From the NCBI RefSeq assembly GCF_004359985.1, contig NZ_SMRO01000002.1:496001-560000 (forward strand): a DNA stretch of 64,000 bases, in the 5' to 3' direction. This stretch comes from Paraburkholderia flava (GTDB lineage: Bacteria > Pseudomonadota > Gammaproteobacteria > Burkholderiales > Burkholderiaceae). This document shows positions 2-57,989 of this stretch, piece after piece. Every line of letters begins with the position of its first letter. Position 1 is the stretch's first letter. A program made the position numbers and the translations under genes. A model generated the notes under the pieces. The model worked only from the letters and a program-made list of their open reading frames with translations, did not search any database and had not been told where the DNA came from.

Positions 2-1486
2 CGTCTGGCCATGCTCGTGCATGAAATCCGCAGGGTTGATCCGGGCGAAACGATCACCATCATGGCTCATAGCCAGGGCACCGTGATCACATTGCTCGCG
101 CAGGCCTTTCTGGCAGAGACCAACAAGGAGCCGTGCGCGGATTGCGTGATCATGGTCGATTCGCCTTACAGCCTGACTGAGCCGTCTGTCGCGCAGGTAG
201 CCCAACCGAGCGCGACACCCTATACCTTGCGTGGCAAGCTGAACACGTTGATCAATATCGTCCAGGCCGTGACGACGACGCCCAATAAAAATCCGAATCT
301 TGACGAACTGGAGCCAGCCAATCCGTTGCACGGTGGCCGCACGGGCAAGGGCTGGTCACAGAAACAGGCGACCCGGCTGGACAAGGACGGTTCCACTCAC
401 GTATTTGCGGAACGTGATAACCGGGGGAAAGTGTATTTATATTTTTGCCCCGAGGATACGACTGTCGGGTTAATGACTATCAAGGGGATCGGTACATACG
501 GTGTCCCCGATACTGTTGAGGAACAATGGGCGGGGAAACATTCGACTGCGGCTACTGTTGCTGGAGCCTTGTTTGGCGGGCCAGTCGGTGGATACTTTGG
601 GAACAAGGCGGCGGCCAACAAGAAAACGTGGCCCGCGATGGATACGTTACAGCATCATCGATTTTTCCAGCGGCTCTGGAGCAAGGGGGGCAATATGAAA
701 GACGGGAAACCCCCTCTCGTCGGCAAGCCGCTGCCCGATTGTATCGAGTACCTCGATGATGGGGGAGCGGGCCAATCGAAGAACCGCCTGATCAACGCGG
801 AGCCCCTCATACCGCCGTACAAGCCAAATCTGTACGGCGACGAAGGCATCACAGGCGATGCCACGCATGCTGGCTACGACAAACCCGATTACGTCTCTCG
901 CGATACCTTGCTGGGTAATCCCAATGCGGTCAAGACGATCCACAGCGTTCCCATCAACGATTTGCCTCCGTCGCTTCTCGGGGCTGGTTACGAAAAAATC
1001 ATCGCCTGGTTTAACAGCAAGTCACCGGACCCGGAAGACCATACCGATAACGTAAGCGTATCGAGCGGTGGAGCACTCACCTACTATCGAGGAGAAACAC
1101 CGAACGAGATACGTCAGCGTCTGGAGAAAAAAGACAAGAAATCCTGGGACCAGAATTCGTATCACTCAGCGATACTGCGTGATCCTGACAATATCCGGCG
1201 CGTCGCGGCTATGGATGCGGCAATCGGTCAGGCAAAAAGCCTGGATGACCCGGACATGCGCAACCTGTTGATCGCGATCTCTGACTGGAAAATGGACGCC
1301 GCTGCGTTTCAGGCGATCAAGAACAACCCATATTACGAACCTCGCCTTGACCAAAGCTCGAAGGGTTTGATTGAGGCATGTTTTCATTACTACACCAAAG
1401 GCAAGTTTCCAGATACCCTGGTGCCCAAGACGCCCCCCAAGATGGTCGACGCAGAAACCTTCCGGGATCGCGAGAAACGACAATGA
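2..1486 (+). CDS. T6SS lipase effector, Tle3-like (5' truncated by window edge)
   Basis: This is probably an antibacterial phospholipase delivered by a type VI secretion system. The frame is open to the left edge, so the N-terminus is missing; the first ATG visible at 11 is internal. About 20 residues in, the motif AHSQGT is a serine-hydrolase nucleophile elbow (GxSxG type, Ser nucleophile), preceded by a hydrophobic strand, as in alpha/beta hydrolases. No signal peptide or membrane segment is visible. The stop codon overlaps the start of the next gene (ATGA), whose product is a Tla3-type lipase adapter, and a PAAR gene follows. That context, more than the catalytic motif alone, supports Tle3 over an ordinary lipase. 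The cognate Tli3-type immunity lipoprotein is not seen in the visible part. Confidence 0.7.
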   Translation, partial: RLAMLVHEIRRVDPGETITIMAHSQGTVITLLAQAFLAETNKEPCADCVIMVDSPYSLTEPSVAQVAQPSATPYTLRGKLNTLINIVQAVTTTPNKNPNLDELEPANPLHGGRTGKGWSQKQATRLDKDGSTHVFAERDNRGKVYLYFCPEDTTVGLMTIKGIGTYGVPDTVEEQWAGKHSTAATVAGALFGGPVGGYFGNKAAANKKTWPAMDTLQHHRFFQRLWSKGGNMKDGKPPLVGKPLPDCIEYLDDGGAGQSKNRLINAEPLIPPYKPNLYGDEGITGDATHAGYDKPDYVSRDTLLGNPNAVKTIHSVPINDLPPSLLGAGYEKIIAWFNSKSPDPEDHTDNVSVSSGGALTYYRGETPNEIRQRLEKKDKKSWDQNSYHSAILRDPDNIRRVAAMDAAIGQAKSLDDPDMRNLLIAISDWKMDAAAFQAIKNNPYYEPRLDQSSKGLIEACFHYYTKGKFPDTLVPKTPPKMVDAETFRDREKRQ

Positions 1487-3165
1487 CGACCATGTTAACG
1501 ACGGCTACGCGGCCCGGATTGCGCGTCTATCTCCTATTGCTGACAGGACTGGTGATAGTCTGGGCGTCCTATGTTCTCTTTGGCTCTTACCAATACTGGA
1601 AGAGCACCGGCCTTGAGGTCTCCAATATGGGTAGTACGGTTCGTAACGGTGTGCTCGTCATTGTTGGTGTGATGGCGGTAGTGTTCGCGGGCCACTGGAT
1701 GTGGCGCGGCTCCCAGGCTCCTGGCCTGGCAGCTGTGCTTCCCGTTGCTGCATCTGCTGAAACATCGAGTCCAGTCACATCGAACCCGGAGAAGGCCCGC
1801 ATTCTCGCCGGAACCGGGCAACAGTACGCGCTGGAAATCCGTGCCGTTGGCCTGGCCGTCACCGGTCGGCATCAGGATACGCTCTGGAAGCAGATTGAGG
1901 CGAAGGCTGACAACTACTCTTCGATCTTGTCACGGGAACCCGATCCGAAAGAGTACGGCAAGAATCCAGACGAGCGTCGGATATTTTCCAAAGTCGATAC
2001 TGGAGCTGCGTTCCGGTACGCAGCAGGCGAAGCGGTCGATCACTGGCCTGTGCCAGTAATCATTCTAGGGCCGCCGAAAGGGAAAGATAGTCCGTATCGG
2101 GCTGCCTTCCAAATCTCCGATGCGCGACAGAATGCCGGACTCGGAGTGACAGAATTTCTGTGGCTCGATGACCAGAATGCGAGTAGCGCAGCACCGGCGC
2201 TTACGCAGCTCTTCGACTTCTTCGACAAGCATCCAGACGTACCCGCCGCGTTGATTGTGAGCCAGGACGGGATGCAATACCGTTGGGGGCTGCATACTCC
2301 GGGTATGCCCAAAGACCCCTTGGGCGCATTCGTTCCACCAGTGCCAGACAGCATGGGCGGACTACTGGTCGCGCGCACGGATCGCGTTGATCATTTCGTG
2401 CGTCCGTATGCAGTTCCTGTTCCCGGCGACATCGATAAGACCAAAACCCAATACGACGTCGTCAAGTTGTGGAATTTTTATTGGGCCGAGGACGATAAAT
2501 TTCAGGAAGAAACCGACAAGGCGGCTGGTGAAACATTTGGTGCAACGACGATGAAAACTGACTGGTGGATATCGAAGCTGCCCGAACTCTGGAAACAGAT
2601 TGGTAACAAGGGGCCGGGCGATTTCAAGCCGAGTCCCTTCCTTCCCGTGCGGTGGGCAAACTGGCAGGTTGAGGAATTCGATGAGGCCCCGCTGCTCGGC
2701 TATCTCCATCGTCCAGTGGAAATCAAGCTGACGGACGCCCACGGCAAACAGCTCAGGCGCGCGGAGCAGGTGGCCGCGTTGCAGGCGGGCTGGAAGGAAG
2801 CCATGGCGACGCTGCCCTCCGGTACGAAGCCGACCCGTGTGTTCTACGACACCACGCTGACCCGCGAGTGGACCATTCCGCTTACTCAGGCGCTGCACGG
2901 CAACGCGGAAGGCATCGATATCGGCGACGTCAAGGAGGGCTACGACATTGGCCGCCGGATCGGCAACACGGGGGTGAGTTCGGCGCTCGTACAGGTGTGT
3001 CTCGCGACGATCGCGAACTATCAGGAAGGCGGCGCAAGTGCGACGGTCAACCTCATGGACAACGGCACGGCCAGCATTGTGATGGTGAGTCCGCCGGACG
3101 AAGCGAGCAAGGCGAACAATGCACAGCATCGCGGTGCCGATCCGTTCAAATACCGATCGTCCTGA
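1483..3165 (+). CDS. DUF2875 protein, Tla3-like T6SS lipase adapter
   Basis: The 560-residue product matches the DUF2875 family, whose studied member Tla3 of Pseudomonas aeruginosa helps load the Tle3 lipase onto its VgrG. Two hydrophobic segments lie near residues 14-33 and 48-66, followed by a large soluble domain ending in a region containing GNAEGIDIGDVKEGYDIGRR. The start at 1483 is chosen because it overlaps the effector stop as ATGA, which indicates translational coupling; the frame stays open further upstream (to 1378), but that would extend deep into the effector gene. Its position between a lipase effector and a PAAR gene fits the adapter role. The match to this family is from memory of its sequence style, and no alignment was run. 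Confidence 0.7.
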   Translation: MTTMLTTATRPGLRVYLLLLTGLVIVWASYVLFGSYQYWKSTGLEVSNMGSTVRNGVLVIVGVMAVVFAGHWMWRGSQAPGLAAVLPVAASAETSSPVTSNPEKARILAGTGQQYALEIRAVGLAVTGRHQDTLWKQIEAKADNYSSILSREPDPKEYGKNPDERRIFSKVDTGAAFRYAAGEAVDHWPVPVIILGPPKGKDSPYRAAFQISDARQNAGLGVTEFLWLDDQNASSAAPALTQLFDFFDKHPDVPAALIVSQDGMQYRWGLHTPGMPKDPLGAFVPPVPDSMGGLLVARTDRVDHFVRPYAVPVPGDIDKTKTQYDVVKLWNFYWAEDDKFQEETDKAAGETFGATTMKTDWWISKLPELWKQIGNKGPGDFKPSPFLPVRWANWQVEEFDEAPLLGYLHRPVEIKLTDAHGKQLRRAEQVAALQAGWKEAMATLPSGTKPTRVFYDTTLTREWTIPLTQALHGNAEGIDIGDVKEGYDIGRRIGNTGVSSALVQVCLATIANYQEGGASATVNLMDNGTASIVMVSPPDEASKANNAQHRGADPFKYRSS

Positions 3166-3219
3166 TAGACAGGATGATGGTCAACCGGTGTTGGCGAAGG
3201 TCACTGAGAGGGGAAGGCG

Positions 3220-3483
3220 GTGCGTGGCGTGATTCGGGTAGGAGATTCGACCAGTCATGGCGGTCGCGTGGAAACGGGCCGTGAGAAGTCAACCGTCATG
3301 GACCGGGCCGTCGCCTGCGTGGGGGACCACTGCTCCTGTCCAATGGCTGGACACGATCGCTGCGTGATTGTCGAGGGCGACCCCAACGTGACGATTGACG
3401 GTGTGGCCGTTGCCTTCGACGGTCACAAAACGTCCTGCGGCGCGACATTGATCTCAAGCGTACCTTCGTCCGGTCGTATTTAA
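3220..3483 (+). CDS. PAAR-domain spike-tip protein
   Basis: The 87-residue protein is a stand-alone PAAR domain, the sharp cone that caps VgrG in type VI secretion. It begins IRVGDSTSHGGRVETG, a typical first PAAR repeat, then has DRAVACVGDHCSCPMAGH and a C-terminal repeat around VTIDGVAVAFDGHKTSCGA. The histidines and cysteines typical of the zinc site at the tip are present. It starts with GTG, preceded by a purine-rich GAGGGGAAG about eight bases upstream. It lies 54 bp after the adapter gene and is probably in the same transcript. It carries no C-terminal toxin extension, so it likely serves as a carrier for the upstream lipase. Confidence 0.85.
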   Translation: MRGVIRVGDSTSHGGRVETGREKSTVMDRAVACVGDHCSCPMAGHDRCVIVEGDPNVTIDGVAVAFDGHKTSCGATLISSVPSSGRI

Positions 3484-3612: not shown

Positions 3613-5124
3613 ATGAAAATTCCCGGTGGCCCTGATCGAAGTTCCGTGTCGATCTTCCGGACCGTGCTATTCGGTTCTCTCGCGCTGGAGGGACAGCCCG
3701 TACGCTGCGTAGGCATTGCGCCGGGGATCGGCGTGAGAATCAGCGCGGGAAGCTTCCGGGCCGTCACCGACGATGAGGTTCTGCACGCTGCGAACGGCAT
3801 ATGGCAGGCGGTTCGCCCGAAACTCGTTGAATGGCTGACCTCGCCGGTCGACCCGGCTGGCCTAAGAATCGTGCTGCGACCGGACATCGAGATCGAGTTT
3901 GGTCGCGACGGTCAATATCTTCTGCGGCCCGGCGTCGCACAGATCGACATCGAATATGATCCGGCGTTCGTGGCGTGGTTTGACGCGACGCGCGCCCAGC
4001 GCCCGCTGATAGAAACACAGCCCAAGCGCAGCCCCGAACGGACCGCGCAACTCGACCGGATATGCCGCCTCATCGAGACCGCGATCCGCAAGACGGTGCA
4101 GGGTGACGATCCATTATATGAGCGCCTGCCTGCCCCTGTGAGATACAGGGCGTCGGGCGCCATCGAAGCCTGGGACCACGTCCGGCAGGCTGCTGGCGAG
4201 TGGGGCACCGACTTTCTGCGACGGCTGCGGACTCACCCTGTCCTGCGGTTGATGGATATCTTCCCGGAGTTTATCGACCTCTGGACAGAGCAAATGCCAT
4301 TCGGGATCGCGGACGACGAGGCGGAGCGGCACGCTGGTCGCAGCATTGTTTGGCAAACCTTCAGTGCACGCGAGGGGGCGCTGTACGAGCCGACCCCGGC
4401 GTTGCACCGGTTGCTCGATGCAGCATGGATCGCCGACGATGTGCCAGTCGGCGCGATCCGCCTGCCGACAGATACGATGTGCATCGTGCCCGATCCCTCA
4501 TGGTGGGGAAGGCGGGACGGAATCGAGTCAGTTGCTCTCTTCTATCATCCCGAGTCGGATAACGGGCATTCGCAGGCGGTGATCAGTTGCGCAACGTGGA
4601 CTCATCGGCGGGAACCGGAGCGACGCGTCAAGCTGGACGTACTCCAGATTCCGATGGGCAACCCCGATAGAACAATCAAGGAAATTTTTGACGAGGCGGG
4701 GCAGTCGCCGGACTCGGCCTTCCCCTCCGATCCGGAAGCCGCGGCACAGGTTCAGAAACATTGGAGCGGCGTGCTCGACTACGTCGTCAAGATGCTGCTG
4801 TATTTGACGGTGCGGGAGGCACATGTCGTTCACGACCGGGCCTACAGCGATGCACCGCGGAACTTCAGCGGTCTCGGCAAGCGCAAACGGGCCGAGCGTC
4901 TTGCTCAGATCGAGCAGCTTTACGACCGGCATATTGTCGGTCCCGCCATTCTCGACGCGCAGATGGCTGCGCCGTCGCATCCTGACGACGAGGCACACCG
5001 TGAGGTTCGCGGACACTGGAGGCGACCGCACTTCAGAATGCAGCCATACGGTCCGAACGGATCGTTGCGCAAGCTTGCCTTTATCGGACCGACGCTGGTA
5101 CGCCCCGATCGCCTGGGTCTGTAA
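3613..5124 (+). CDS. 503-aa protein with AcrVA2-like C-terminal region
   Basis: The function is not established. The protein is soluble, with no signal peptide or membrane segments. The C-terminal third holds a helix-rich segment (KMLLYLTVREAHVV), then a basic stretch NFSGLGKRKRAERL, then VRGHWRRPHFRMQPYGPNGS and LRKLAFIGPTLVRP. The RGHW motif followed by a basic, aromatic tail resembles the end of the AcrVA2 family, known from a Cas12a inhibitor of Moraxella but widespread as larger proteins on mobile elements. ATG at 3613 has a purine-rich GGGAAGG upstream. The same frame is open back to 3526 without a good start codon, so the N-terminus could be longer or damaged. It follows the PAAR gene by 130 bp, and a link to type VI secretion cannot be excluded. 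Confidence 0.55.
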   Translation: MKIPGGPDRSSVSIFRTVLFGSLALEGQPVRCVGIAPGIGVRISAGSFRAVTDDEVLHAANGIWQAVRPKLVEWLTSPVDPAGLRIVLRPDIEIEFGRDGQYLLRPGVAQIDIEYDPAFVAWFDATRAQRPLIETQPKRSPERTAQLDRICRLIETAIRKTVQGDDPLYERLPAPVRYRASGAIEAWDHVRQAAGEWGTDFLRRLRTHPVLRLMDIFPEFIDLWTEQMPFGIADDEAERHAGRSIVWQTFSAREGALYEPTPALHRLLDAAWIADDVPVGAIRLPTDTMCIVPDPSWWGRRDGIESVALFYHPESDNGHSQAVISCATWTHRREPERRVKLDVLQIPMGNPDRTIKEIFDEAGQSPDSAFPSDPEAAAQVQKHWSGVLDYVVKMLLYLTVREAHVVHDRAYSDAPRNFSGLGKRKRAERLAQIEQLYDRHIVGPAILDAQMAAPSHPDDEAHREVRGHWRRPHFRMQPYGPNGSLRKLAFIGPTLVRPDRLGL

Positions 5125-5803: not shown

Positions 5804-6109
5804 ATGAAATCCGATATCTCACCCGGTGATTTGTTGCCTCCGCTGTTTCGTCTTGGGCAACTCGTCGCCACGCCCGGCGCAATCGATGTGCTGGACCGAA
5901 CCGGCACGAACGTCACGACGTTGCTGTGGCGTCACCAGCATGGCGATTTCGGTAGCCTCTGCGAAGCCGATGTCCGACTGAACCGCGAAGCCATCGCTGC
6001 GGGCACGCGCATCCTGTCCTGCTACGAGATCGGTGCCTCTCGGGAGCGAGTCTGGATCATCACCGAAGCCGACAGAAGTACCTGCGTGCTCCTGCCGGAC
6101 GAATACTGA
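5804..6109 (+). CDS. Conserved small protein typical of integrative elements
   Basis: The 101-residue acidic, soluble protein belongs to a family I have seen often on integrative and conjugative elements of Proteobacteria, with no assigned function. Members share a layout visible here: ATPGAI near the start, a middle segment LLWRHQHGDFGSLCEADVRL, and a C-terminal ERVWIITEADRSTCVLLPDEY. Databases sometimes label such proteins as type I restriction subunits, which the sequence does not support. An AAGGAT ribosome binding site precedes the start. Its stop overlaps the start of the following peptidase gene by one base (TGATG), so the two are translationally coupled. Confidence 0.75.
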   Translation: MKSDISPGDLLPPLFRLGQLVATPGAIDVLDRTGTNVTTLLWRHQHGDFGSLCEADVRLNREAIAAGTRILSCYEIGASRERVWIITEADRSTCVLLPDEY

Positions 6110-6774
6110 TGACACAGTTCATCGTCCAGCGACTTCATCCCCGTCTCAGACTGGGGCGGACGTTACGCGCGGGATCGAAATTCCCGGTTCACTGCTTTCA
6201 GGGCGATCTCGATTCGGCGTGTGCGCTGTGGGCGGCATTCAGCGCGTTCGCCATCCTCGGGCGTATTGCCGATCCGGCAACAGTGTCGTCGCGAAAGCGC
6301 GGGCAGGAAGCCGCATTGTGGGATCGCGCCGTGCCGTTCTTTTTCACGGGCGTCGATCTGCAGACGCTTGCCGACGAGGTCATTCGGGAAGCTTCCGGTG
6401 GAGGTTTGCGACCAACGGTATTCGAAGGCGCTCACAGGGATGTGATCGATTTCTGCGAACGGGAACTGTCGCGTGGACATCTCGTGATTGTTAGCTGGCG
6501 CCCGGTCGGACAGGCGCACTGGCATGCCGTGCTGGCCGTGGGTAGCGAGGGCCGTATGCAGGGGCGCAGATTTCAGCCTCACGCGCTGCTGATCCTCGAT
6601 CCGGCGGAACGCGATGCACCGATGGCGACGTGCAATGCGCGCCTAGATTACGCGAATGCGGTTTCCGGCAAACGTGCCCGGTACGGAACCTACATCACCG
6701 CGCGTGACACGCTTTCTGTCGTGATCGACGGCGCGGTGTCGATCCGCGCACGTCCCGCGTCGAAGCCCCCATAG
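6109..6774 (+). CDS. Papain-like (C39-like) cysteine peptidase domain protein
   Basis: The 221-residue protein has the layout of a C39-like papain-fold peptidase. Q31 and C38 sit in FQGDLDSACALWAAF, matching the oxyanion-hole glutamine and the catalytic cysteine at the start of a helix. H139 sits in HWHAVLAVG on a strand, and D164 in LLILDP completes the triad in the expected order. No signal peptide, leader-peptide transporter domain or membrane segment is visible, so it is not a bacteriocin exporter. It is translationally coupled to the upstream 101-residue protein. Its stop codon directly abuts the stop of the convergent XRE regulator gene. The substrate is unknown, and peptidase activity is inferred from residue order only. 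Confidence 0.6.
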   Translation: MTQFIVQRLHPRLRLGRTLRAGSKFPVHCFQGDLDSACALWAAFSAFAILGRIADPATVSSRKRGQEAALWDRAVPFFFTGVDLQTLADEVIREASGGGLRPTVFEGAHRDVIDFCERELSRGHLVIVSWRPVGQAHWHAVLAVGSEGRMQGRRFQPHALLILDPAERDAPMATCNARLDYANAVSGKRARYGTYITARDTLSVVIDGAVSIRARPASKPP

Positions 6775-7101
6775 CTACCGCAGACGTCGGCGGTTCGGCT
6801 TCTCGGGCTCTGCTGCATTCGCGCGGCGCGTGCCGGTCGGCCGGAGATTGATTTCCAGCGGCTCGAACAGTTTTGCCAACGTCAGGTTCATGCAGTAAGC
6901 GAGATTGGCTAGTGTCTCGATCGACGGATTGCCGACGCCGCGCTCGATCGTCGAAACGTAGCTGCGATCAACCAGCGCCTCATGCGCCAATTGCTCCTGC
7001 GATTTGTTGGCTTCAATCCGGCATGCCTTCATCCGTTTGCCGAGCGCGGTCGAGATCGAGGTGCCCTTGCGTTTTTGTCTGGGTTTCGCGGTGGCTGTCA
7101 T
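6775..7101 (-). CDS. XRE-family transcriptional regulator
   Basis: The 108-residue protein carries a Cro/C1-type helix-turn-helix at about residues 20-75: ALGKRMKACRIEANKSQEQL, then ALVDRSYVSTIERGVGNPSI and ETLANLAYCMNLTLAKLF. It has basic tails at both ends. The start at 7101 (MTATAKPRQKRK) is preferred over the longer frame to 7149 because the extra residues look unlike a natural N-terminus. It is transcribed away from the FtsZ-like gene, with 138 bp between them, so it probably regulates itself and that gene. A perfect GTGTATACAC palindrome in the shared promoter region is a possible operator. Confidence 0.85.
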   Translation of the reverse strand: MTATAKPRQKRKGTSISTALGKRMKACRIEANKSQEQLAHEALVDRSYVSTIERGVGNPSIETLANLAYCMNLTLAKLFEPLEINLRPTGTRRANAAEPEKPNRRRLR

Positions 7102-7162
7102 GCAGCAAAGAATGCATGTATGACGACTCATAAGCCACGGAGTAAACACGCATTTTTGCTGC

Positions 7163-7172
7163 GTGTATACAC
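7163..7172. promoter_or_regulatory. Palindrome GTGTATACAC, candidate operator
   Basis: A perfect 10-bp palindrome lies in the AT-rich region between the divergent XRE regulator and FtsZ-like genes, 62 bp upstream of the XRE start and 68 bp upstream of the FtsZ-like start. Its position suits an XRE operator, but binding is inferred. Confidence 0.35.
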
Positions 7173-7239
7173 ATCAACAAATTTACGCCACAATCCCTCG
7201 CGCTTCGGCCTGCGGCGGGTTCACAGGAAGGAAATACAA

Positions 7240-8163
7240 ATGAGTGACGAAAAACCGCGCGACACGGGCGTCGCGCAGGGAGCCACCCTCGATACACCAG
7301 CCCGTCCGGATCATCCCGTCCCGCCATCTGGTTACCCCTCCGTTCATGTGTTCGGCATGGGAGAGGCGGGCACCAGGTTGCTCGATGCGCTGGCGCTTGA
7401 GCGCAGCGGTGGAAGTATTGAATTCGTCCGTGCGATGCCCTCGGACGATGTACCCGCCAGCTATTGCGCCGACAGCGCGTTTCTCGGCGCGGGCGACGGC
7501 GCGGACTCACTGTCCGGCCAGTTCCGCGATACCGATCTGATGCTGGTTCTCGCCGGAGCCGATGACGTAGCCGGGCTTCAGGCCGCGGGAACCATCGCGA
7601 GTGCTGCGCAGCGGGCCGGTGCGCGGGTCATCGGCATGGTGGCGCAGGAACGGGCGCAACCCGTCGACCGGCCGACGCTAATGCTCTGCCTGCAGTACGG
7701 CGTGGATGCGCTGGTCATCGTGCCGCCCAACCCCGGCGGGTCCGTGCTGGGCTGTCTGCTGGACGCCTACGTTCACGCGACCGCAGTCGGCGTTACTGGA
7801 GATGCGGGAGACACGGAGCCGGGCATCCCGGAGGGGGCGGATTACCTCGACGCGAGGGCGATATTCGCCAACCGGACCGTGGCCCGTATCGGGTTCGGTC
7901 ATGCGGAGGGACGCGAGCGCGGACGCCGGGCAGCCAGTCACGCGATGACGAACGTCGGCAAGCCGCGCATGAAAGAGGTCGCTGGCGTGCTGATCCTTGT
8001 TGCCGGTTCGCGAACGATGCGCCTGCGGGAGATTCTGGAGGTGGTCGATGCAGTCGACACAGCCATGGCCCCCGGTGTCGAGCCCCGTCTCGGAGTGCAC
8101 TACGACAACCGGCTCGGCGACATCTTGCGGGTCACCGTGATCGCCGCTTCCCGCGACGACTGA
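7240..8163 (+). CDS. Divergent FtsZ-like protein lacking the GTP-binding signature
   Basis: The 307-residue protein is a remote FtsZ homologue. The C-terminal domain (about residues 205-302) follows FtsZ closely, including GVLILVAGSRTMRLREI and HYDNRLGDILRVTVIA, which matches the end of the FtsZ C-terminal domain. The N-terminal domain keeps the fold order, with strand-loop VFGMGEAGTRLL (T1 loop) at 37-48, LMLVLAGADDVAG (T4 position) at 100-112, RAGARVIGMVAQ at 125-136 and GVDALVIVPPN at 154-164. The tubulin signature GGGTGTG is replaced by GADDVAG, and the glycine-rich T1 loop is eroded. The T7-loop aspartates appear retained (D201 and D204 in ADYLDAR). GTP binding therefore looks lost. The N-terminus is a disordered, proline-rich 30 residues. 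ATG at 7240 has a good AGGAAGGA site. Confidence 0.75.
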   Translation: MSDEKPRDTGVAQGATLDTPARPDHPVPPSGYPSVHVFGMGEAGTRLLDALALERSGGSIEFVRAMPSDDVPASYCADSAFLGAGDGADSLSGQFRDTDLMLVLAGADDVAGLQAAGTIASAAQRAGARVIGMVAQERAQPVDRPTLMLCLQYGVDALVIVPPNPGGSVLGCLLDAYVHATAVGVTGDAGDTEPGIPEGADYLDARAIFANRTVARIGFGHAEGRERGRRAASHAMTNVGKPRMKEVAGVLILVAGSRTMRLREILEVVDAVDTAMAPGVEPRLGVHYDNRLGDILRVTVIAASRDD

Positions 8164-8229
8164 TCCCGTCCAGTTCCAGACCAATAGGGGTGTTCGCTCC
8201 TGCCCATGAAACAACACAAAGGAAACAGC

Positions 8230-8901
8230 ATGTACACCATCACGAATTGCCGTGCAATGAAACCGCTCGCCTTCGCGCTCCTCCTGATGCTTGCCGCCTG
8301 TTCGCAGCATGCATCGCAAACTGAATCCTCTGTGGCGTCCGCAGTCCCTGCGTCGGGTGCACCACCAGATGCACCGGCAGCAGCTTCAGTAGCAAACAGC
8401 GAAGAGCGCGACAAAGCAGATGAAAACGGCACACCTGGTGTCGCATCGTCGAGTGCGCAATCATCGGACGGGATACATCGCGGTCCGCGCATAAAGGGGA
8501 TGCAGCTTGGCGACTCGCTCGAAGAAGTGAGGCGGCAAGTCGAGGGACTCATACCGAACACACGATGCGAGCTACGCACTGTCAGCGCAACTATTCATCC
8601 GCTCTATTGCGACGGCGTCGTACTGGCCGGGCTGGAGTTCGAATCCGGACGTCTGTCGAGTCTGTCGATGACATCGCTTCTCGTACAGAGTGTGTTCGGT
8701 GTTATGCCGCTCAAGGAGTTTGTGCAGAACTTTGCGTCGGCTTATGACATCCCGCGCATGGAACCGCAGACCGGTGCGAACGGGGTCGAATATCTCTCTT
8801 ATCGCAACGAGAGCGGCTGGGAAGTTGATATCTTTGCAGACGCAACGTTCCTGCTCAAAGCGATCCCAACCGCTGCGCAGCAGACGGGCAAGTTCAACTA
8901 G
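8230..8901 (+). CDS. Lipoprotein of unknown function
   Basis: The 223-residue protein is probably an exported lipoprotein. A hydrophobic stretch, PLAFALLLMLAACSQ, ends in a lipobox (LAAC). It is followed by a low-complexity Ala/Ser/Pro linker of about 60 residues and a folded domain that begins around KGMQLGDSLEEVRRQVEGL. Start 8230 has the best ribosome binding site (AAAGGAAAC); a later ATG at 8257 would give a more compact signal peptide. It is 66 bp downstream of the FtsZ-like gene on the same strand and may be cotranscribed. No family was recognised for the C-terminal domain. Confidence 0.7.
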   Translation: MYTITNCRAMKPLAFALLLMLAACSQHASQTESSVASAVPASGAPPDAPAAASVANSEERDKADENGTPGVASSSAQSSDGIHRGPRIKGMQLGDSLEEVRRQVEGLIPNTRCELRTVSATIHPLYCDGVVLAGLEFESGRLSSLSMTSLLVQSVFGVMPLKEFVQNFASAYDIPRMEPQTGANGVEYLSYRNESGWEVDIFADATFLLKAIPTAAQQTGKFN

Positions 8902-9049
8902 CTGATGCTGTCCGCCCGGGTGCGTCCATGACGTATCTGGGTATTTCACAAAGCCGCGAATGACCTCGTTACCCCGCAGGTTTCGCTTCGTTGGATGGGG
9001 CGTTCCTCGCTTCCCGCAAACGTCAGTGCGCTTCCTGACCTGACGATAG

Positions 9050-9237
9050 CTATTCGCCGGAAGTGGGGTCTTCCGTCTGTTCCTTGCCGGGCCACGGGAA
9101 CACTCGTTCCTCTTGCGTCAAGCGCAACATCCGTTTTCGCGCGCCATCCATTACATAAACCGGTGCCGTCGCGAACTGTTGATCATAGGTAAGCGCCAAA
9201 TCCTCCCCACCTAGCGTCCACGCTTGAGAAGAGCCAC
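9050..9237 (-). pseudogene. C-terminal remnant of an unidentified gene (copy 1)
   Basis: An open stretch on the minus strand ends at a TAG (9050-9052) and encodes QQFATAPVYVMDGARKRM followed by LRLTQEERVFPWPG. No start codon or N-terminus is present, and the frame dissolves where an IS66 remnant begins near 9240. A homologous C-terminal end occurs again at 18,418-18,545 on the same strand. I do not recognise the family. Confidence 0.5.
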
Positions 9238-9240
9238 GAT

Positions 9241-9655
9241 TGCGTCCGCAACCGGATCAAGCTGCTGTTCTATGGGCGCGCCGGATTCTGGTTGATGTTG
9301 CGGAGTCTTGAGCAGGACCACTTCGTATGGCCGCACCGGCAGCAGGCCGTGATTGAACTGACGACCGAGCAGCTGCACTGGGCGCGCCGCAGTGGACAAC
9401 AACGTAATTGAGCGCGACATCAGGCCATTCTGCACGGCGCGCTCCTCGTGGTTGTTCGCTGACACGGTCGCCGGCACAAAGGCAAGCGCAATGGTCTATA
9501 GTCTGATGCTCACCTGTCGGGCATGTGACGTTGAGCCCTATACTTACCTCTTGCATGTGCTCACCGAACTGCCACAGCGTCCGCCAGACGCCGACATCAC
9601 CGATCTCTTGCCATTCAACGTAGAGAAGCGATCTGCTCGCGCGGCCATCGCGTGA
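9241..9655 (+). mobile_element. IS66-family remnant (TnpB fragment joined to TnpC C-terminus)
   Basis: From 9241 one frame encodes RIKLLFYGRAGFWLML and WPHRQQAVIELTTEQLHW, which is characteristic of the small IS66 protein TnpB. It runs to a stop at 9409-9411. From 9392 another frame encodes VDNNVIERDIRPF, DTVAGTKASAMVYSLMLTCR and VLTELPQRPPDADITDLLPF, the C-terminal end of the IS66 transposase, stopping at 9655. Several hundred codons that normally separate these parts are missing, so the element is a dead deletion derivative. Terminal inverted repeats were not identified. Confidence 0.8.
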
Positions 9656-10736: not shown

Positions 10737-11642
10737 ATGTTCGACCGGCTGCCTCCCCTGCAAACGTTGCGCGCCTTCGAAGCCGCAGGACGTCTATCGA
10801 GCATGACGCTGGCCGCTGACGAATTGCACCTTACTCATGGTGCGGTGAGCCGACACATCAAGACCCTGGAGGACGATCTCGGGGTGCTGCTGTTTCGACG
10901 CATGACGCGCCAGATCGTCCTGACCAGTGAAGGCGCGGAACTGCTGGTAACGGTCACCACCGTGCTAGGCGAACTCACACGTGAAGCCGATCGCCTTCGA
11001 GCGCAAAAAAGCGTGGCGCACCTCACCATCAGCACGAGTGTCTCCTTTGCCAGCAAATGGCTAGCGCCCCGACTGCATCGATTCAAGACGGCCCACCCGG
11101 AACTCGACATTCACCTCGACGTGACTGACATCAATGTCGATCTCACCGATGGGCAGGTCGATGCTGGCGTCCGATATGGCAGCGGCCACTATCCTCGCGC
11201 CGTCGCAGAACGGATTCTGGAAGAGACCGTTACCCCTGTGTGCAGTCCAGCGTATCGTGACGAGAGAGGCGGACTGCCCACGGTGGCCAGCGTTGCCGCC
11301 TGTACGTTGCTCCACGAAGACCGGATGCTGGCCAACTGGGAGCAGTGGTTTGCACTGGCCTCCGGCAATGCCGTCCGGGGCGGCCGAGGACCGGCCTACA
11401 GTCATGGCAGCATGGCGATCGAGGCAGCCATCCGTGGGGAAGGGATAGCGCTCGGCCGCAGCGCATTGGTATCGGACGACGTTGCTGCTAGACGTCTCGT
11501 CGCGCCATTCCCCGACATCCGGCTCAAAGCGGAGCGAGGCTACGATCTCGTATATCGAGCCGGAAATCGCGATCATCCGAAGGTGTGCGCCCTGCGTGAA
11601 TGGTTAGCCGATGAAGTACGAGCATTTCTCGGGAACCCGTGA
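10737..11642 (+). CDS. LysR-family regulator, GcvA-like
   Basis: The 301-residue protein starts MFDRLPPLQTLRAFEAAGRL, a classic LysR N-terminus. The winged helix covers residues 5-65 (LAADELHLTHGAVSRHIKTL, then LGVLLFRR), and the substrate-binding domain follows. The phrasing DVTDINVDLTDGQVDAGVRY is typical of the GcvA subgroup. Start 10,737 is chosen over upstream in-frame ATGs because it places the helix-turn-helix at the usual distance. It is divergent from the EamA transporter gene and likely controls it. The 3' end overlaps the convergent gene at 11,604 by 39 bp. Confidence 0.9.
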   Translation: MFDRLPPLQTLRAFEAAGRLSSMTLAADELHLTHGAVSRHIKTLEDDLGVLLFRRMTRQIVLTSEGAELLVTVTTVLGELTREADRLRAQKSVAHLTISTSVSFASKWLAPRLHRFKTAHPELDIHLDVTDINVDLTDGQVDAGVRYGSGHYPRAVAERILEETVTPVCSPAYRDERGGLPTVASVAACTLLHEDRMLANWEQWFALASGNAVRGGRGPAYSHGSMAIEAAIRGEGIALGRSALVSDDVAARRLVAPFPDIRLKAERGYDLVYRAGNRDHPKVCALREWLADEVRAFLGNP

Positions 11643-12071
11643 AGGGCAGTGTCGGTGACGCGTTCCGACGATAGCCCGCAATGCACCGGTGTGCTCAATC
11701 GAGCGCTTACGATCATAGGAACACAGTAGCCTGCCGAGAATAGCCTCGTCGTCACCATCAATGGCCCATGCCTCGCCGCTTGATGTGAGATACACGCAGT
11801 GTTCCAGCGCGTCCTGTACGTCGTGATGGAAGGAATCCGTTTCATTGCCGAAACCTGCGTCACGCAGGAACCAGCTAAGGCTCGCTACGATAAACAGCTC
11901 ACCGACAAGCGCCGTATTTCCGGCACTGCTACGGCATGCAGCAAGCGCAAGGTGATTGCGCAGGGAAACCTCGCGTACTGAATCGGCGGTTGGTGGCAGG
12001 AGCTTGTCTTTCGTCAACACGGCACGAGAGCTATTTCGTGGAGACTTTTTCTTCGTTCGAGTCGGCTTCAT
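11604..12071 (-). CDS. Conserved Burkholderia protein of unknown function
   Basis: The 155-residue protein has a basic N-terminus (MKPTRTKKKSPRNSSRAVLT) and then a helical domain with SLRNHLALAACRSSAGNTAL, ELFIVASLSWFLRDAGFG and CVYLTSSGEAWAIDGDDEAI. Similar Burkholderia proteins are often labelled Fis-family regulators, but I see no clear helix-turn-helix and treat the role as unknown. The start at 12,071 is preferred to the longer frame to 12,176. It converges on the LysR gene, with their ends overlapping by 39 bp. Confidence 0.65.
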   Translation of the reverse strand: MKPTRTKKKSPRNSSRAVLTKDKLLPPTADSVREVSLRNHLALAACRSSAGNTALVGELFIVASLSWFLRDAGFGNETDSFHHDVQDALEHCVYLTSSGEAWAIDGDDEAILGRLLCSYDRKRSIEHTGALRAIVGTRHRHCPSRVPEKCSYFIG

Positions 12072-19756: not shown

Positions 19757-21550
19757 TCAGACCTGTCGAAGCGGTTTGCCATGCGAGTCGGCTCTTTCAA
19801 TAGGATCGCTGTGTGGTGCCGCGATCAGCGCTTCGAGCACGCTTTTGGTCAGAAACCGTGATGGCTCATCGAACCGCTGTCTGGATGGTGCGTGGTGGAA
19901 TGGCGCGTTAAACAGATGGACCTGATCACGTGCACGGGTGACAGCGACGTAGAACAGTCGTTGCTCTTCCGCAATGTCGCCGCGCCGTATCTCTCGATAG
20001 AAGGGGATGGACCCGTCTGTCACACCGAGTAGCACAACGTGATCCCACTCGTCACCTTTCGCGCCGTGGATGGTCGACGTGACAATCTTTGCCTGCTGTG
20101 AGAGCGTCGTGACGTGTTCGCGAAAATCCTGCACGGTCCGAAACTGTCTGCTGATTGCCTGCCAGCGGTTGAGTTCCGCAGCAAGATTTGCCGGAGGATT
20201 GCCGACGGACCCCACTAGACGCAGATAGATGCGCACGGCCGTCATGTAGCGGCCCTCGCGTGACGGGATGCGTGCCGCTTTCACGAGCCGACGCAAACAG
20301 TCGAGAATCACAGAGCGCTTCGGCAGGGCACCAACAATCCGGCAGAGATGGTGAGTCCGCCAGCCGCGCTGCGGCTTCTTCCCGGCTTTTGCAGTGGCAA
20401 CGCATTTCTGCAGCAGCGACAGCATGTCGAGAACCTTGAACACGTGCATGTACTGTCGCAGGCTGAACCCTGAATCCGTCTCATAACCGGCTGCGAGCAG
20501 AGCCTGTTCGACAAGACGGAGCTGCGCTTTAGTGCGACCGAGAATCGCGATGCGATCGGGCTGGGTTCCTTGAGCGACGAGATCACCAACGAGATCGACA
20601 ATTGCATCTTCCTGCGCGATCGCAGAGGAGCAATGTACTAGTGACGGTGTGACACCGCGACGGCTACCGAATACGCGACCCCCACCTTTACTTAGAACTG
20701 CGTTGGCGAGCGCTGCGGTTTCGTGTGTGAGCCGGAACGAGCGGGTCAGTCCCATTGTCACGGCGTCACTGATCACTCTGCGGAAATCTTCCAGTTTCCC
20801 ACCGATGAATCCGTACACGGCCTGCTTTGGGTCGCCGAACACCATGACATTGGGAATCCGTTCAGCAAGTGCAGCAAGAAGGTACGCCTGCTCGACGCTC
20901 ATATCCTGTCCTTCATCGACGAGCACATGCAGATACGGCAGCGAGGCAGTTTCGAGAGCGGTATGCGCCCGTCGCAGCATTGCGGGATAGTCGATGCCGC
21001 CGTTACGCTCGACGGTTCTTTCGTACGCAAGGCGAATCGTGCGCAGTTCCGCCAGCACAGTCGCATAGCCCGAGAACCCCGAGTCCTCATCGCGAACTAG
21101 GCGAGCAGCCAGCTCATCGCTGCCGTTGCACCACTGGATGAATTCAGCAAGACGCACTGCTTCGTACGGCGACGAGAGGTCAATACCGGTCTTCTGCTTC
21201 ACAAAACGACGAGCCTTCGGGCACCGCTTTATCGATTCTCTCAGCAGGTCGGCGCTCCGCTTCGGCGTAAGTAGCACCGGCAATCGCGATGCCGCGCTGC
21301 GTACGAGCGCCAAACCGAAGGCGTGAAAGGTCTTCGCCGTGACGTCAGCGGGAAGGCGTTTCTTCAGCACGGTGACAGCCCGTTCCGAAAAGCTGAGAAC
21401 GAGAATGTGTTCGGGGAGCACACCGAGATCGAGCTGACGACGAACCCGCGCGTCGAGTGTCCGCGTCTTGCCGCTACCGGCACAGGCGACGACGACAACG
21501 CGCTCTTCCGTCGTATTGATGATCTTTAATTGCTCAGCGCTGTGCGACAT
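19757..21550 (-). CDS. UvrD/Rep-like superfamily 1 helicase
   Basis: The 597-residue protein carries the full set of superfamily 1A helicase motifs in order. Walker A is ACAGSGKT (22-29), motif Ia LSFSERAV, motif II LVDEGQDMS, motif III GDPKQAVYGF, motif IV around LTRSFRLTHE, motif V STIHGAKGDEWDHVV and motif VI RLFYVAVTRARDQVHL. It is shorter than UvrD or Rep (about 670-720 residues), with reduced 1B and 2B insertions. It therefore probably acts as a specialised accessory or defence helicase rather than the housekeeping copy. No GajA-type nuclease or other partner lies beside it. It converges on the histidine-rich membrane gene. Confidence 0.88.
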   Translation of the reverse strand: MSHSAEQLKIINTTEERVVVVACAGSGKTRTLDARVRRQLDLGVLPEHILVLSFSERAVTVLKKRLPADVTAKTFHAFGLALVRSAASRLPVLLTPKRSADLLRESIKRCPKARRFVKQKTGIDLSSPYEAVRLAEFIQWCNGSDELAARLVRDEDSGFSGYATVLAELRTIRLAYERTVERNGGIDYPAMLRRAHTALETASLPYLHVLVDEGQDMSVEQAYLLAALAERIPNVMVFGDPKQAVYGFIGGKLEDFRRVISDAVTMGLTRSFRLTHETAALANAVLSKGGGRVFGSRRGVTPSLVHCSSAIAQEDAIVDLVGDLVAQGTQPDRIAILGRTKAQLRLVEQALLAAGYETDSGFSLRQYMHVFKVLDMLSLLQKCVATAKAGKKPQRGWRTHHLCRIVGALPKRSVILDCLRRLVKAARIPSREGRYMTAVRIYLRLVGSVGNPPANLAAELNRWQAISRQFRTVQDFREHVTTLSQQAKIVTSTIHGAKGDEWDHVVLLGVTDGSIPFYREIRRGDIAEEQRLFYVAVTRARDQVHLFNAPFHHAPSRQRFDEPSRFLTKSVLEALIAAPHSDPIERADSHGKPLRQV

Positions 21551-25137: not shown

Positions 25138-26343
25138 TCATATCTTGAGTCCTTCGCTCGTCGCGAATGCCGCCCACTCCTTCATCAGGTCAACGCGCTT
25201 CGCGAAGAGGTCGCCACGCGCATACGCAGCTTCTGCCTTGTCCTTGATGCCGTGAGCGAGTGCGGCTTCGCAAACTTCTCGGGGGTAGTGCGTCGTTTCG
25301 CCTGCCCAGTCTCGAAACGTCGAACGAAAGCCGTGCACGGTAATGTCGTCGCGCTTCATGCGCTCAAGCAGTTGGAGCATAGCCATGTTGGACAGTGGCT
25401 TTTTGTACCGGGCACCAGGGAAGATGTAGTCGCTTTGCTTTACATCCTCCTGCGCCTTGATGAGCGAAACCGCACGAGGGGACAGTGGCACGCGATGCTC
25501 CTTGTGCATCTTCATGCGCTCGGCCGGGATGACCCAGATACCCTCTTCGAGATTGAACTCTGACCACGTTGCTCCGATGACTTCGTTCGTTCGGGTGGCA
25601 GTGAGGATAAGCAGTTCGAGCGCACGTGCTGCAGCACCTTCTTCGGTGCGCAGCGATTTGATAAAGCTGGGCAGGTCAGCATAAGGCAGCGCTGGATGGT
25701 GCTGCACTTTCTGGACGCGCGAACGTTTCGGCAGCAACGTATCGAGATGGCCTTTCAGCCGGGCAGGATTCTCGCCACTACGGAAGGCACGCACCGTGGC
25801 CCAGTCCAGTACGGATTCAATGCGGCCGCGCACTCGGGATGCCGTTTCGGTCTTCGTCGTCCAAATCGGCTCCAGTACTTTCATCACGAGCGTCGTATCA
25901 ATGGCTGAAACCGGCAGCGAGCCGAAGACCGGGTCGGCATAGGTCTTCAATGTGTTGGTCCACTGGCCAGCATGCTTTTCGTTTTTCCATGCGGCGCGAT
26001 GTGCTGCGATGTACTTGTCGGCACATTGCATGAACGTCATCTCGTTCGCTCCCGCGACCCCGTCGGCTAAACGCTTGGCGTCGCGCGAGTCGATCGGATC
26101 AGCGCCGTCGAGCAGAAGGCGGCGACAGTCAAGTGCGCGTACCCGGGCTTCGGCCAGACCGATCGTGTGTAGAGGGCCGAGACCCATGCCGCGAGCTTTG
26201 CCCGCCCTCATGTAGCGAAAAAGCCATGACTTGACTCCGGCGGCGGTGATCTGAAGATAGAGCCCGCCGCCATCGGCATAGAGCCCCGGTTTCGTTGTCT
26301 TCGTGATTTTCAGTTGGTTGAGTTTGTTTAGCGTTCGCGGCAT
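25138..26343 (-). CDS. P4-type tyrosine integrase
   Basis: The 401-residue site-specific recombinase has an N-terminal DUF4102 arm-binding domain (TKPGLYADGGGLYLQITAAG, WLFRYMRAGKARGMGLG) and a C-terminal catalytic domain. The active-site set is visible: Arg in LILTATRTNEVIGATW, H-x-x-R in HGFRSTFRDWAG, a second His in EAALAHGIKDK and the nucleophile Tyr in AEAAYARGDL. It would integrate and excise the island. P4-type integrase genes lie next to an attachment site, here expected just right of the start at 26,343. The downstream hairpin at 25,020 separates it from the AlpA gene. Confidence 0.93.
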   Translation of the reverse strand: MPRTLNKLNQLKITKTTKPGLYADGGGLYLQITAAGVKSWLFRYMRAGKARGMGLGPLHTIGLAEARVRALDCRRLLLDGADPIDSRDAKRLADGVAGANEMTFMQCADKYIAAHRAAWKNEKHAGQWTNTLKTYADPVFGSLPVSAIDTTLVMKVLEPIWTTKTETASRVRGRIESVLDWATVRAFRSGENPARLKGHLDTLLPKRSRVQKVQHHPALPYADLPSFIKSLRTEEGAAARALELLILTATRTNEVIGATWSEFNLEEGIWVIPAERMKMHKEHRVPLSPRAVSLIKAQEDVKQSDYIFPGARYKKPLSNMAMLQLLERMKRDDITVHGFRSTFRDWAGETTHYPREVCEAALAHGIKDKAEAAYARGDLFAKRVDLMKEWAAFATSEGLKI

Positions 26344-56281: not shown

Positions 56282-57097
56282 ATGTCGCCCAAGAAATCGC
56301 CCTTTTTCGAACTACGCAGCGGCGCTGTCGACACGCTTCTGTTCGTCGTGAAGACCACCGACCTCGACGCGATGCGTGCCGAGCTGAATCGGCGCTTCGA
56401 GGCGACCCCCGAGTTTTTCGCGAATGACGTCGTGGCCATCGACGTCCGCCGTCTCGCCGCCGACGAGCGCGTGCCGCTCGCCGACGTCGCGCAGATGCTC
56501 GACAGCGTGCGGATGCGTCCGGTCGGTGTCGTCGCGTTGCCCGAGCAGCATCCGTGGGCGACGGAAGGCGGCCTGCCGCTGCTCGAAGCGCGCGACCGGC
56601 GCGGTGCCGGCAAGTCGGGCGCCGAAGAGGCTGCCGAATCTCACGCGCAATCGCACGTCGAACCGCACGCCGAAGCGCAGGGCGTTCTGGCGTTAGCCCC
56701 GACCGCGACCGCAAGCGCCCCCGACACTATCCCCGCCGAACCCGTTCCTCTGGGACCGTCGTCGCAGACGCTGGTCGTCGACAAGCCGTTGCGCTCCGGT
56801 CAGCGCATCTACGCAAAAGGCGATCTGGTCGTGCTCGGCATCGTGAGCTACGGCGCCGAGGTGATCGCGGAAGGCAACATCCATATCTACGCGCCGTTGC
56901 GCGGCCGGGCTCTGGCCGGCGTGCACGGCAATCACGACGCGCGGATCTTCTGCACGTGTCTCGAGCCGGAACTCATTTCGATCGCGGGCATCTACCGTAC
57001 GACCGAAACGCCGTTGCCCCCGGACGTGCACGGCAAGGCGGTACAGATCTGGCTCGACGAAGAAAAACTGCTGATCGAGCCGTTGCGGCTCACCTGA
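56282..57097 (+). CDS. minC: Septum site-determining protein MinC
   Basis: The 271-residue division inhibitor blocks FtsZ rings away from mid-cell. The N-terminal domain begins [20 protein letters not shown], then an Ala/Glu/His-rich linker (about residues 100-150). The C-terminal beta-helix contains [40 protein letters not shown] and [20 protein letters not shown], which binds MinD. It is the first gene of minCDE. The start is at 56,282. Confidence 0.97.
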
Positions 57098-57173
57098 AGA
57101 ACACGCTGCGTGCCGGCGAACTGTCTAAAGCCAGCGCACATTTGAAGAATTGACGAACGCAAGGTAAGGCTAA

Positions 57174-57989
57174 ATGGCAAAAATCATTGTGGTGACTTCG
57201 GGCAAGGGTGGCGTTGGCAAGACGACCACAAGCGCGAGTTTTGCATCGGGCCTCGCGTTGCGCGGTCACAAGACCGCCGTGATCGACTTCGACGTCGGCC
57301 TGCGCAACCTCGACCTCATCATGGGCTGCGAGCGCCGCGTCGTGTACGACCTGATCAACGTGATCCATGGCGAAGCGAACCTGAACCAGGCGCTGATCAA
57401 GGACAAGAAGTGCGAGAACCTGTTCGTGCTGCCCGCGTCGCAAACGCGCGATAAGGATGCACTGACGCAGGAAGGCGTCGAGAAGATCATTAATGATCTT
57501 CTTGCGATGGACTTCGAATACATCGTCTGCGATTCGCCGGCCGGCATCGAATCGGGCGCGCTGCTCGCGATGCATTACGCGGACGAAGCGCTGATCGTGA
57601 CGAACCCGGAAGTGTCGTCGGTGCGCGACTCGGATCGCATTCTCGGCATTCTGTCGTCGAAGACGAAGCGCGCGATCGAAGGGAAGGAGCCGATCAAGGA
57701 GCATCTGCTGATCACCCGCTACAACCCGAAGCGCGTCAGCGAAGGCGAGATGCTGTCGCTCACCGACATCCAGGAAATCCTGCGCATCGAACTGATCGGC
57801 GTGGTGCCGGAATCGGAAGCGGTGCTGCATGCGTCGAACCAGGGCCTGCCCGCGGTGCACCTCGAAGGCACCGACGTCGCGGAAGCCTACAAGGACATCG
57901 TGTCGCGTTTCCTCGGCGAGGAAAAGTCGCTTCGTTTCACCGATTACCAGAAGCCGGGCCTGTTGCAGCGCCTCTTCGGCACCAAGTAA
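57174..57989 (+). CDS. minD: Septum site-determining ATPase MinD
   Basis: The 271-residue membrane-cycling ATPase has the deviant Walker A KGGVGKTT near residue 11 with the signature lysine, [20 protein letters not shown] after it, and Walker B-like [11 protein letters not shown]. The C-terminal membrane-targeting helix is LLQRLFGTK. It recruits MinC and is displaced by MinE. It lies 76 bp after minC and 13 bp before minE. Confidence 0.98.

Follow-up and report, generated by a model that had tools for sequence, protein, structure and literature searches.

What does a relative of FtsZ do if it has lost the signature of GTP binding and is carried on accessory DNA? The question is raised by an open reading frame in the window, a stretch of 64,000 nucleotides from a contig of Paraburkholderia flava. 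The initial annotation had read this frame as an FtsZ homologue that lost the GTP-binding signature but kept the aspartates of the T7 loop, and had suggested either a pseudo-GTPase that could cap, poison or sequester FtsZ filaments or a polymer protein with another ligand. Our analysis supports that interpretation in part. We call the protein pseudo-FtsZ, and the features we refer to are collected in Table 1.

Table 1. Features of the window around and beyond pseudo-FtsZ (positions count from the first letter of the window; residues are those of the protein concerned).
Feature	Position	Strand	Basis
T6SS Tle3 lipase (cut by window edge), Tla3 adaptor and PAAR genes	11..3483	+	Pfam
Small cassette protein, 101 aa, no known family	5804..6109	+	alignment of homologues
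Predicted papain/C39-like cysteine peptidase, 221 aa; Q31, C38, H139, D164	6109..6774	+	alignments, model, fold matches
XRE-family regulator, probable start 7101 (ORF listed as 6775-7149)	6775..7101	-	PF01381 E=8e-12, cassette HMM
Putative XRE operator: GAGTAAACAC (7140-7149) and palindrome GTGTATACAC (7163-7172)	7140..7172	.	repeats
Promoter-like TTTACGCCACAAT	7182..7194	+	by eye; similar T(T/A)TACGCTACAnT in four relatives
Ribosome-binding-site-like GGAAGG in GGAAGGAAATACAA, before ATG 7240	7226..7239	+	sequence
Pseudo-FtsZ, 307 aa	7240..8163	+	ATG 7240, stop ends 8163
T1 position GMGEAG, residues 39-44; the T1 Asn is Arg46 here	7354..7371	+	alignments
T4 position GADDVAG, residues 106-112, replacing GGGTGTG	7555..7575	+	alignments
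T7 (synergy) loop PEGADYLD, residues 197-204, with D201 and D204	7828..7851	+	alignment
FtsZ_C domain, residues 214-303	7879..8148	+	Pfam PF12327, E=1.6e-10
R-L-x-E, residues 261-264	8020..8031	+	aligned by motif with E. coli FtsZ R271-L272 contact
Exported/lipoprotein-like partner (by eye), GPRIKG motif, probable start 8257	8206..8901	+	homologues adjoin FtsZ-like genes
DSR2-like SIR2 anti-phage protein	14708..18436	-	PADLOC E=4e-146; SIR2_2
GajB-like UvrD helicase	19757..21550	-	PADLOC E=1.9e-46; Pfam UvrD
Phage-type tyrosine integrase near island edge	25138..26343	-	Pfam

The assignment to FtsZ was borne out. PF12327 scored above its cut-off in the window protein and in all seven relatives scanned, and precomputed matches in the protein database place FtsZ_C in 8 of 13 members, the five without it belonging to clade B (see below). 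The GTPase domain of tubulin and FtsZ (PF00091) gave no match at E<=1 in pseudo-FtsZ, and the TIGR00065 ftsZ model, which has a cut-off of 295 bits, scored it at 47.5. Using phmmer on the PDB, we matched residues 83-306 to Mycobacterium tuberculosis FtsZ (E=4.6e-15). A profile of the whole family matched the same protein at E=3.6e-34, with profile positions 26-295 covering FtsZ residues 4-314. Judged from these comparisons, the homology spans the full core and is beyond chance by far. The AF2 model (pLDDT 61) has its two domains mis-packed, with an rmsd of about 15 A, and matches FtsZ folds at low confidence; we take pseudo-FtsZ to have the FtsZ/tubulin fold.

The frame ends four residues past the FtsZ_C match, so the window protein has no FtsZ-like linker or tail. 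It is by its tail that FtsZ is tied to its membrane anchors. The host genome has its own ftsZ at a separate site (C2:24743), which holds GGGTGTG and encodes 397-407 aa depending on the start codon.

To describe the GTP pocket, we compared 21 distinct family genes (23 rows in the alignment, as two genes occur twice) with 33 FtsZs chosen for holding GGGTGTG. The columns are given in host numbering, and they are the ones that we take to belong to loops T1, T4, T5 and T6. All seven GGGTGTG columns of T4 are kept in only 0-10% of the members. At T1, Gly19, Gly21 and Gly24 are each kept in 43%, Gly22 in 5%, Gly25 in 10% and Asn26 in none. Glu137 and Arg141 of T5 and Asn164 of T6 are kept in none of the 21 members, and the T5 loop of pseudo-FtsZ is shortened. 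Many members of the window type keep GxGxxG at T1; in clade B this loop is fully lost, with TSAC or similar at that position. We saw no alternative G-box or other conserved pocket motif in the N-domain alignments of the family. None of the three outcomes that the initial annotation had named as refuting it came about: the profile searches hit FtsZ, the model matches FtsZ folds at low confidence, and the alignments show no substitute G-box. The replaced T4 loop and the reduced T1 loop that had been noticed in the window protein are part of a pocket that is degraded across the family. The losses at T5 and T6, like those of the T7 asparagine and of the linker and tail, go beyond what the initial annotation had described.

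The T7 loop is the family's most conserved run of eight residues (0.76 vs a mean of 0.50). Its two aspartates had been thought to be retained, and they do align with host FtsZ aspartates 208 and 211. D204 is kept in 21/21 genes and D201 in 20/21 (22 of 23 rows), with Glu in its place at locus L098. The asparagine of the loop (N-x-D-x-x-D) is lost in all 21 members. In the R-L-x-E stretch, Arg is found in 21 of the 23 rows, Leu and Glu in all 23, and E264 in all 21 genes. R261 and L262 align by motif with Arg271 and Leu272 of E. coli FtsZ, which sit at the subunit contact (PMC7010359).

The same pattern appears when columns at least 95% identical in FtsZs are followed into the family. Out of 68 such columns in the N-domain, 3 are kept in at least 80% of the family and 39 in at most 10%. 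For the seven in helix H7, the counts are none and six. For the 38 in T7 plus the C domain, they are 10 and 12. Fisher's test of 3/68 against 10/38 gives p=0.0017, for columns that are not independent and domain borders that we set ourselves. The T7 aspartates are under clear constraint.

In an FtsZ filament, two neighbouring subunits make up the nucleotide site: one has the pocket at its top, and the other completes it with the T7 loop at its bottom (PMC7010359, PMC8936486). Since T7 acts on a nucleotide that the adjacent subunit holds, its retention in a protein that has lost its own pocket suggests a partner in trans. The aspartates could serve the nucleotide of another protein, could help to bind a protein that recognises the T7 face, or could be structural in pseudo-FtsZ itself. 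The T7 face may not be fully working: the asparagine lost in every member is the residue whose change in Staphylococcus aureus FtsZ (N208L) impairs filament formation (PMC8936486), and 12 of the 38 columns conserved in this part of FtsZ survive in no more than 10% of the members.

Protein searches covered the 7,999 candidates sharing most words. Among these, the window sequence by itself found one further relative; an 11-row profile brought the number of non-FtsZ members to 13, the window protein among them. The relatives that bear organism names are all from Paraburkholderia. NCBI names P0005 an FtsZ/tubulin family protein, P0007 and P0009 FtsZ family proteins, and P0010 a plasmid protein. 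The members are 24-51% identical to the window protein.

Eight of 398 Burkholderiaceae genomes have one or two copies above the FtsZ background, scoring at least 173.6 bits vs at most 113.8 among the remaining matches listed, and three of these eight belong to genera other than that of the window. A search of the genus (144 genomes) added two carriers, G075 and G091. G107 and G142 each have a second match that is ambiguous, as is a fragment in G014; matches at contig ends in G128 and G040 were taken for ordinary ftsZ. None of the 248 other genomes in a sample of the phylum (two of them Burkholderiaceae) rose above the background of true FtsZ, the best match having 116.9 bits. Where the taxonomy is known, we have met the family only in Burkholderiaceae.

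Our tree has 55 rows, 21 from the family and 34 FtsZs from the phylum sample (one of them a piece of 54 aa). All the family genes group in a single clade (100/100), whose branch is long and falls outside the 34 FtsZ rows; clade B is well supported within it. We consider the family to be small, undescribed and monophyletic. We rejected a recent copy of the host ftsZ as the source because the clade lies outside the FtsZ rows, where long-branch artefacts are possible. In the one close pair for which we calculated dN/dS (NG86; L023/L024), the FtsZ-like gene has about 0.31, the GPRIKG protein 0.27, the peptidase 0.13 and the XRE gene 0.02. Pseudo-FtsZ is thus under purifying selection in this pair and is evolving faster than the peptidase and the XRE protein.

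A phage or plasmid origin found no support: the window protein and P0010 had no match in the PLSDB plasmids, P0010 had none in the INPHARED phages, and viral contigs scanned by short patterns held no relative, although P0010 carries the plasmid label at NCBI. We also observed that L022 (P. dilworthii) has a window-type and a clade-B gene in one cassette (8671-9588 and 11093-11953, both on the minus strand). About 1.5 kb separates them, a stretch that holds a GPRIKG gene and one for a hexapeptide acetyltransferase, and the two are a possible hetero-pair.

The window copy sits on an accessory island, as had been supposed. From the start of the window to 27.6 kb, the 21 mechanically picked ORFs have a GC3 of 0.51-0.71, and past that point 31 of 35 ORFs have 0.72-0.89. 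This low-GC3 part bears the integrase, the DSR2 and GajB-like genes and the T6SS genes. Relatives of the integrase are near 7 of 39 other loci and PAAR is near 3 of 39; the family genes sit on what look like mobile islands. We found no tRNA in the window, and comparison with 30 relatives for an empty site gave no insertion boundary, the flanks of the cassette being poorly kept. After PAAR, at 3613-5124, there is a 503-aa protein without a family match, whose gene has a copy with 68% identical DNA on another contig of the same genome (C3:1015808-1017402). From its position and the second copy, it may be a T6SS effector or an immunity gene. MinC inhibits FtsZ, and minC and minD are at 56282-57989 in the window; they are about 48 kb from pseudo-FtsZ in core-like DNA, and this is probably chance.

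We scanned 27 hand-picked cassette neighbours with PADLOC, leaving out loci L066, L068 and L098, and 14 of them had matches (8/9, 2/8 and 4/10 by batch). At loci with FtsZ-like genes, these were Hma (L026), a methyltransferase and Vsr (L028), a ThsA-like SIR2 protein (L023), PDC-S15 (L025), PDC-S11 (L022) and, weakly, PbeA and PDC-S15 (L024). As the neighbours were picked by hand, the association of the cassettes with defence genes is suggestive only.

Rather than a regulator standing by itself, pseudo-FtsZ is an optional piece of cargo in a repressor/peptidase cassette. In nine of ten mapped loci the FtsZ-like gene follows a protein of about 100 aa, a papain/C39-like peptidase and a divergent XRE gene. 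The peptidase itself is found in 37 of the 398 Burkholderiaceae genomes, seven of which have an adjoining FtsZ-like gene, and an FtsZ-like gene is present at 9 of 38 mapped peptidase loci. We predict the peptidase from its alignment and its model. Q31, H139 and D164 are invariant and C38 is kept in at least 90% of 33 rows, and these are presumably the active-site residues, as in papain and C39 peptidases. The model (pLDDT 90.6) matches a papain-like fold.

The small protein had no match in Pfam, NCBIfam, PADLOC or PHROG. In PADLOC (2023), pseudo-FtsZ, the peptidase, the small protein and the GPRIKG protein had no match at E<=0.1, and the XRE protein had HTH-type matches only. GPRIKG-type proteins are found solely beside FtsZ-like genes among the mapped loci (5/5, the window included), and INQILG-type proteins are beside FtsZ-like genes in three more. 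Some cassettes had features of their own. At L061 the peptidase frame (6227-6985) is broken by one stop, and the cassette adjoins an OLD/AriA-like gene. L071, L082 and L083 have no FtsZ-like genes and lie near genes that by eye resemble DUF932, YqaJ and phage recombination genes; their similar order suggests the backbone of an integrative element.

GT-TA-AC elements are frequent in the gap between the XRE gene and its cargo. In the window, GAGTAAACAC and GTGTATACAC both lie between the XRE start and the FtsZ-like start. GTAAACAC was found in 19 of 33 regions upstream of XRE genes, which are related sequences and not independent. It occurs 28 times in the 549,559 bases of 38 loci vs about 17 expected at equal base frequencies. 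Among ten FtsZ-like gaps compared, the exact GTAAACAC is in two (the window and L023), with looser forms elsewhere by eye.

We tentatively favour the reading that pseudo-FtsZ is a non-polymerising mimic of FtsZ, kept as repressor-controlled cargo of a conflict cassette and acting on host FtsZ through its T7 face. As most of the GTP-binding parts are lost and key interface residues are kept, it may grip FtsZ or its attackers rather than build filaments. The XRE protein would repress the cargo promoter through the GT-TA-AC repeats, and the peptidase, possibly with the small protein, would cut the repressor and so relieve repression. In switches of the ImmA/ImmR and CapP/CapH type, metallopeptidases cut the repressor; by analogy with these, we guess that the XRE protein is a substrate of the cassette peptidase. 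Once released, pseudo-FtsZ would use its T7 face to dock on host FtsZ, at the face that holds GTP. It could not then be extended on its own top face, so it would cap or perturb FtsZ filaments, and division would be slowed for as long as the island or an invader was active. The recurrence of the XRE gene, operator-like repeats and peptidase together counts for the switch, which is weakened by how few FtsZ-like gaps hold the exact GTAAACAC. The Glu at L098 and the low-confidence, mis-packed model count against the reading as a whole. In addition, if FtsZ grows at its T7 end, as PMC8936486 tentatively has it, a cap at the other end might stabilise filaments rather than poison them.

It is somewhat doubtful, in our judgement, that the protein is instead an adaptor independent of FtsZ, whose fold binds the peptidase, the XRE protein or the exported partner and whose T7 aspartates are structural or cation-binding. 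The pairing of GPRIKG-type and INQILG-type proteins with FtsZ-like genes would be expected of such an adaptor, as would the lost T7 asparagine. It leaves unexplained why the T7 and R-L-x-E stretches are the best kept, and the signal- or lipobox-like starts of the partners, seen by eye, make direct contact with a cytosolic protein doubtful. Another use of a kept surface would be as a decoy or guard, a monomeric mimic showing the T7 surface that soaks up phage inhibitors of FtsZ or reports them to the peptidase or a defence neighbour; we think this unlikely. It fits a family that is very diverse, has defence genes nearby and keeps T7 best while the polymerisation parts are lost. PMC13423816 predicts that Gp0.4 of phage T7, in the manner of SulA and MciZ, docks on the synergy-loop (T7) surface of FtsZ. 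It also reports that the defence protein CapRelEbc becomes active only when Gp0.4 and FtsZ are in complex, and that monomeric variants of FtsZ are enough for this. The same source reports that FtsZ D209C, changed at the first T7 aspartate, still supports activation, which would make such sensing independent of the residue conserved here. A decoy would need no repressor, and a cassette that has an FtsZ-like gene at only 9 of 38 mapped loci does not need such a sensor. We also know of no phage inhibitor of FtsZ in Burkholderiaceae, which counts against the decoy as well. Less likely again is the specific form of this idea, in which a dedicated FtsZ decoy in defence islands is tied to the repressor/papain-like-peptidase switch, as effector-triggered immunity made from a crippled relative of the target.

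We believe that a polymer built with a ligand other than GTP, the second suggestion of the initial annotation, is very unlikely. The homology across the whole core and the GxGxxG that many window-type members have at T1 would suit it, but clade B is without T1, the T5 loop is shortened and the N-domain alignments offered no other pocket motif. We give the least credence to a decaying, functionless copy of ftsZ, which is highly improbable despite the strong divergence and the long branch. All nine copies from the Burkholderiaceae genome search lie in open frames of at least 300 aa, there are 21 distinct genes with an invariant T7 aspartate and conserved synteny, and the dN/dS of the one pair is about 0.31.

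The preferred mimic resembles several known systems. It shares with FtsZ (TIGR00065; PF00091 and PF12327) the full-core homology, FtsZ_C, the Asp-x-x-Asp of T7 and the R-L-x-E of the C domain. It differs in having no GGGTGTG, no GTP contacts at T5 and T6, no T7 asparagine and a reduced T1, in the missing linker and tail of the window protein, and in that the family is not nested among the FtsZs of the phylum sample. Like FtsZl1 and FtsZl2, it is an extra protein of the FtsZ superfamily beside a normal FtsZ, and FtsZl1 is likewise found in operons of several genes, some of these operons including proteins predicted to be secreted or in the membrane (PMC2875224). We rejected membership in either group because both keep the GGGTG(S/T)G loop and pseudo-FtsZ does not. 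FtsZl2 is described in that report as keeping all motifs of the nucleotide domain, and in FtsZl1 neither T6-H7 nor an FtsZ C domain can be recognised. Our family, with the pocket missing and the C domain kept, is thus the mirror image of FtsZl1.

Pseudo-FtsZ would act at the interface of FtsZ protofilaments, like SulA, MciZ and Gp0.4. Those proteins are not homologous to FtsZ and bind its T7 face, whereas pseudo-FtsZ carries a T7 face itself. The cassette is like ImmR/ImmA and CapH/CapP in having an XRE repressor and a peptidase partner near mobile or defence genes, but ImmA and CapP are metallopeptidases and the cassette peptidase is papain/C39-like. In CapRelEbc/Gp0.4/FtsZ immunity, FtsZ is part of phage sensing, as could apply here; CapRelEbc uses host FtsZ itself, in contrast to the separate FtsZ-like gene in our island (PMC13423816). 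Our literature search, which had most subscription papers and preprints outside its coverage, found nothing on such a pseudo-FtsZ family and no precedent of the ARC3 kind.

Pseudo-FtsZ would be a natural separation-of-function variant of bacterial tubulin, in which the face for polymer contact is partly kept and the nucleotide pocket is lost. Through its tie to a repressor and a protease, with defence genes around them, it would connect cell division with the conflict between phages and bacteria, a connection that the recent report on CapRelEbc has made concrete (PMC13423816).
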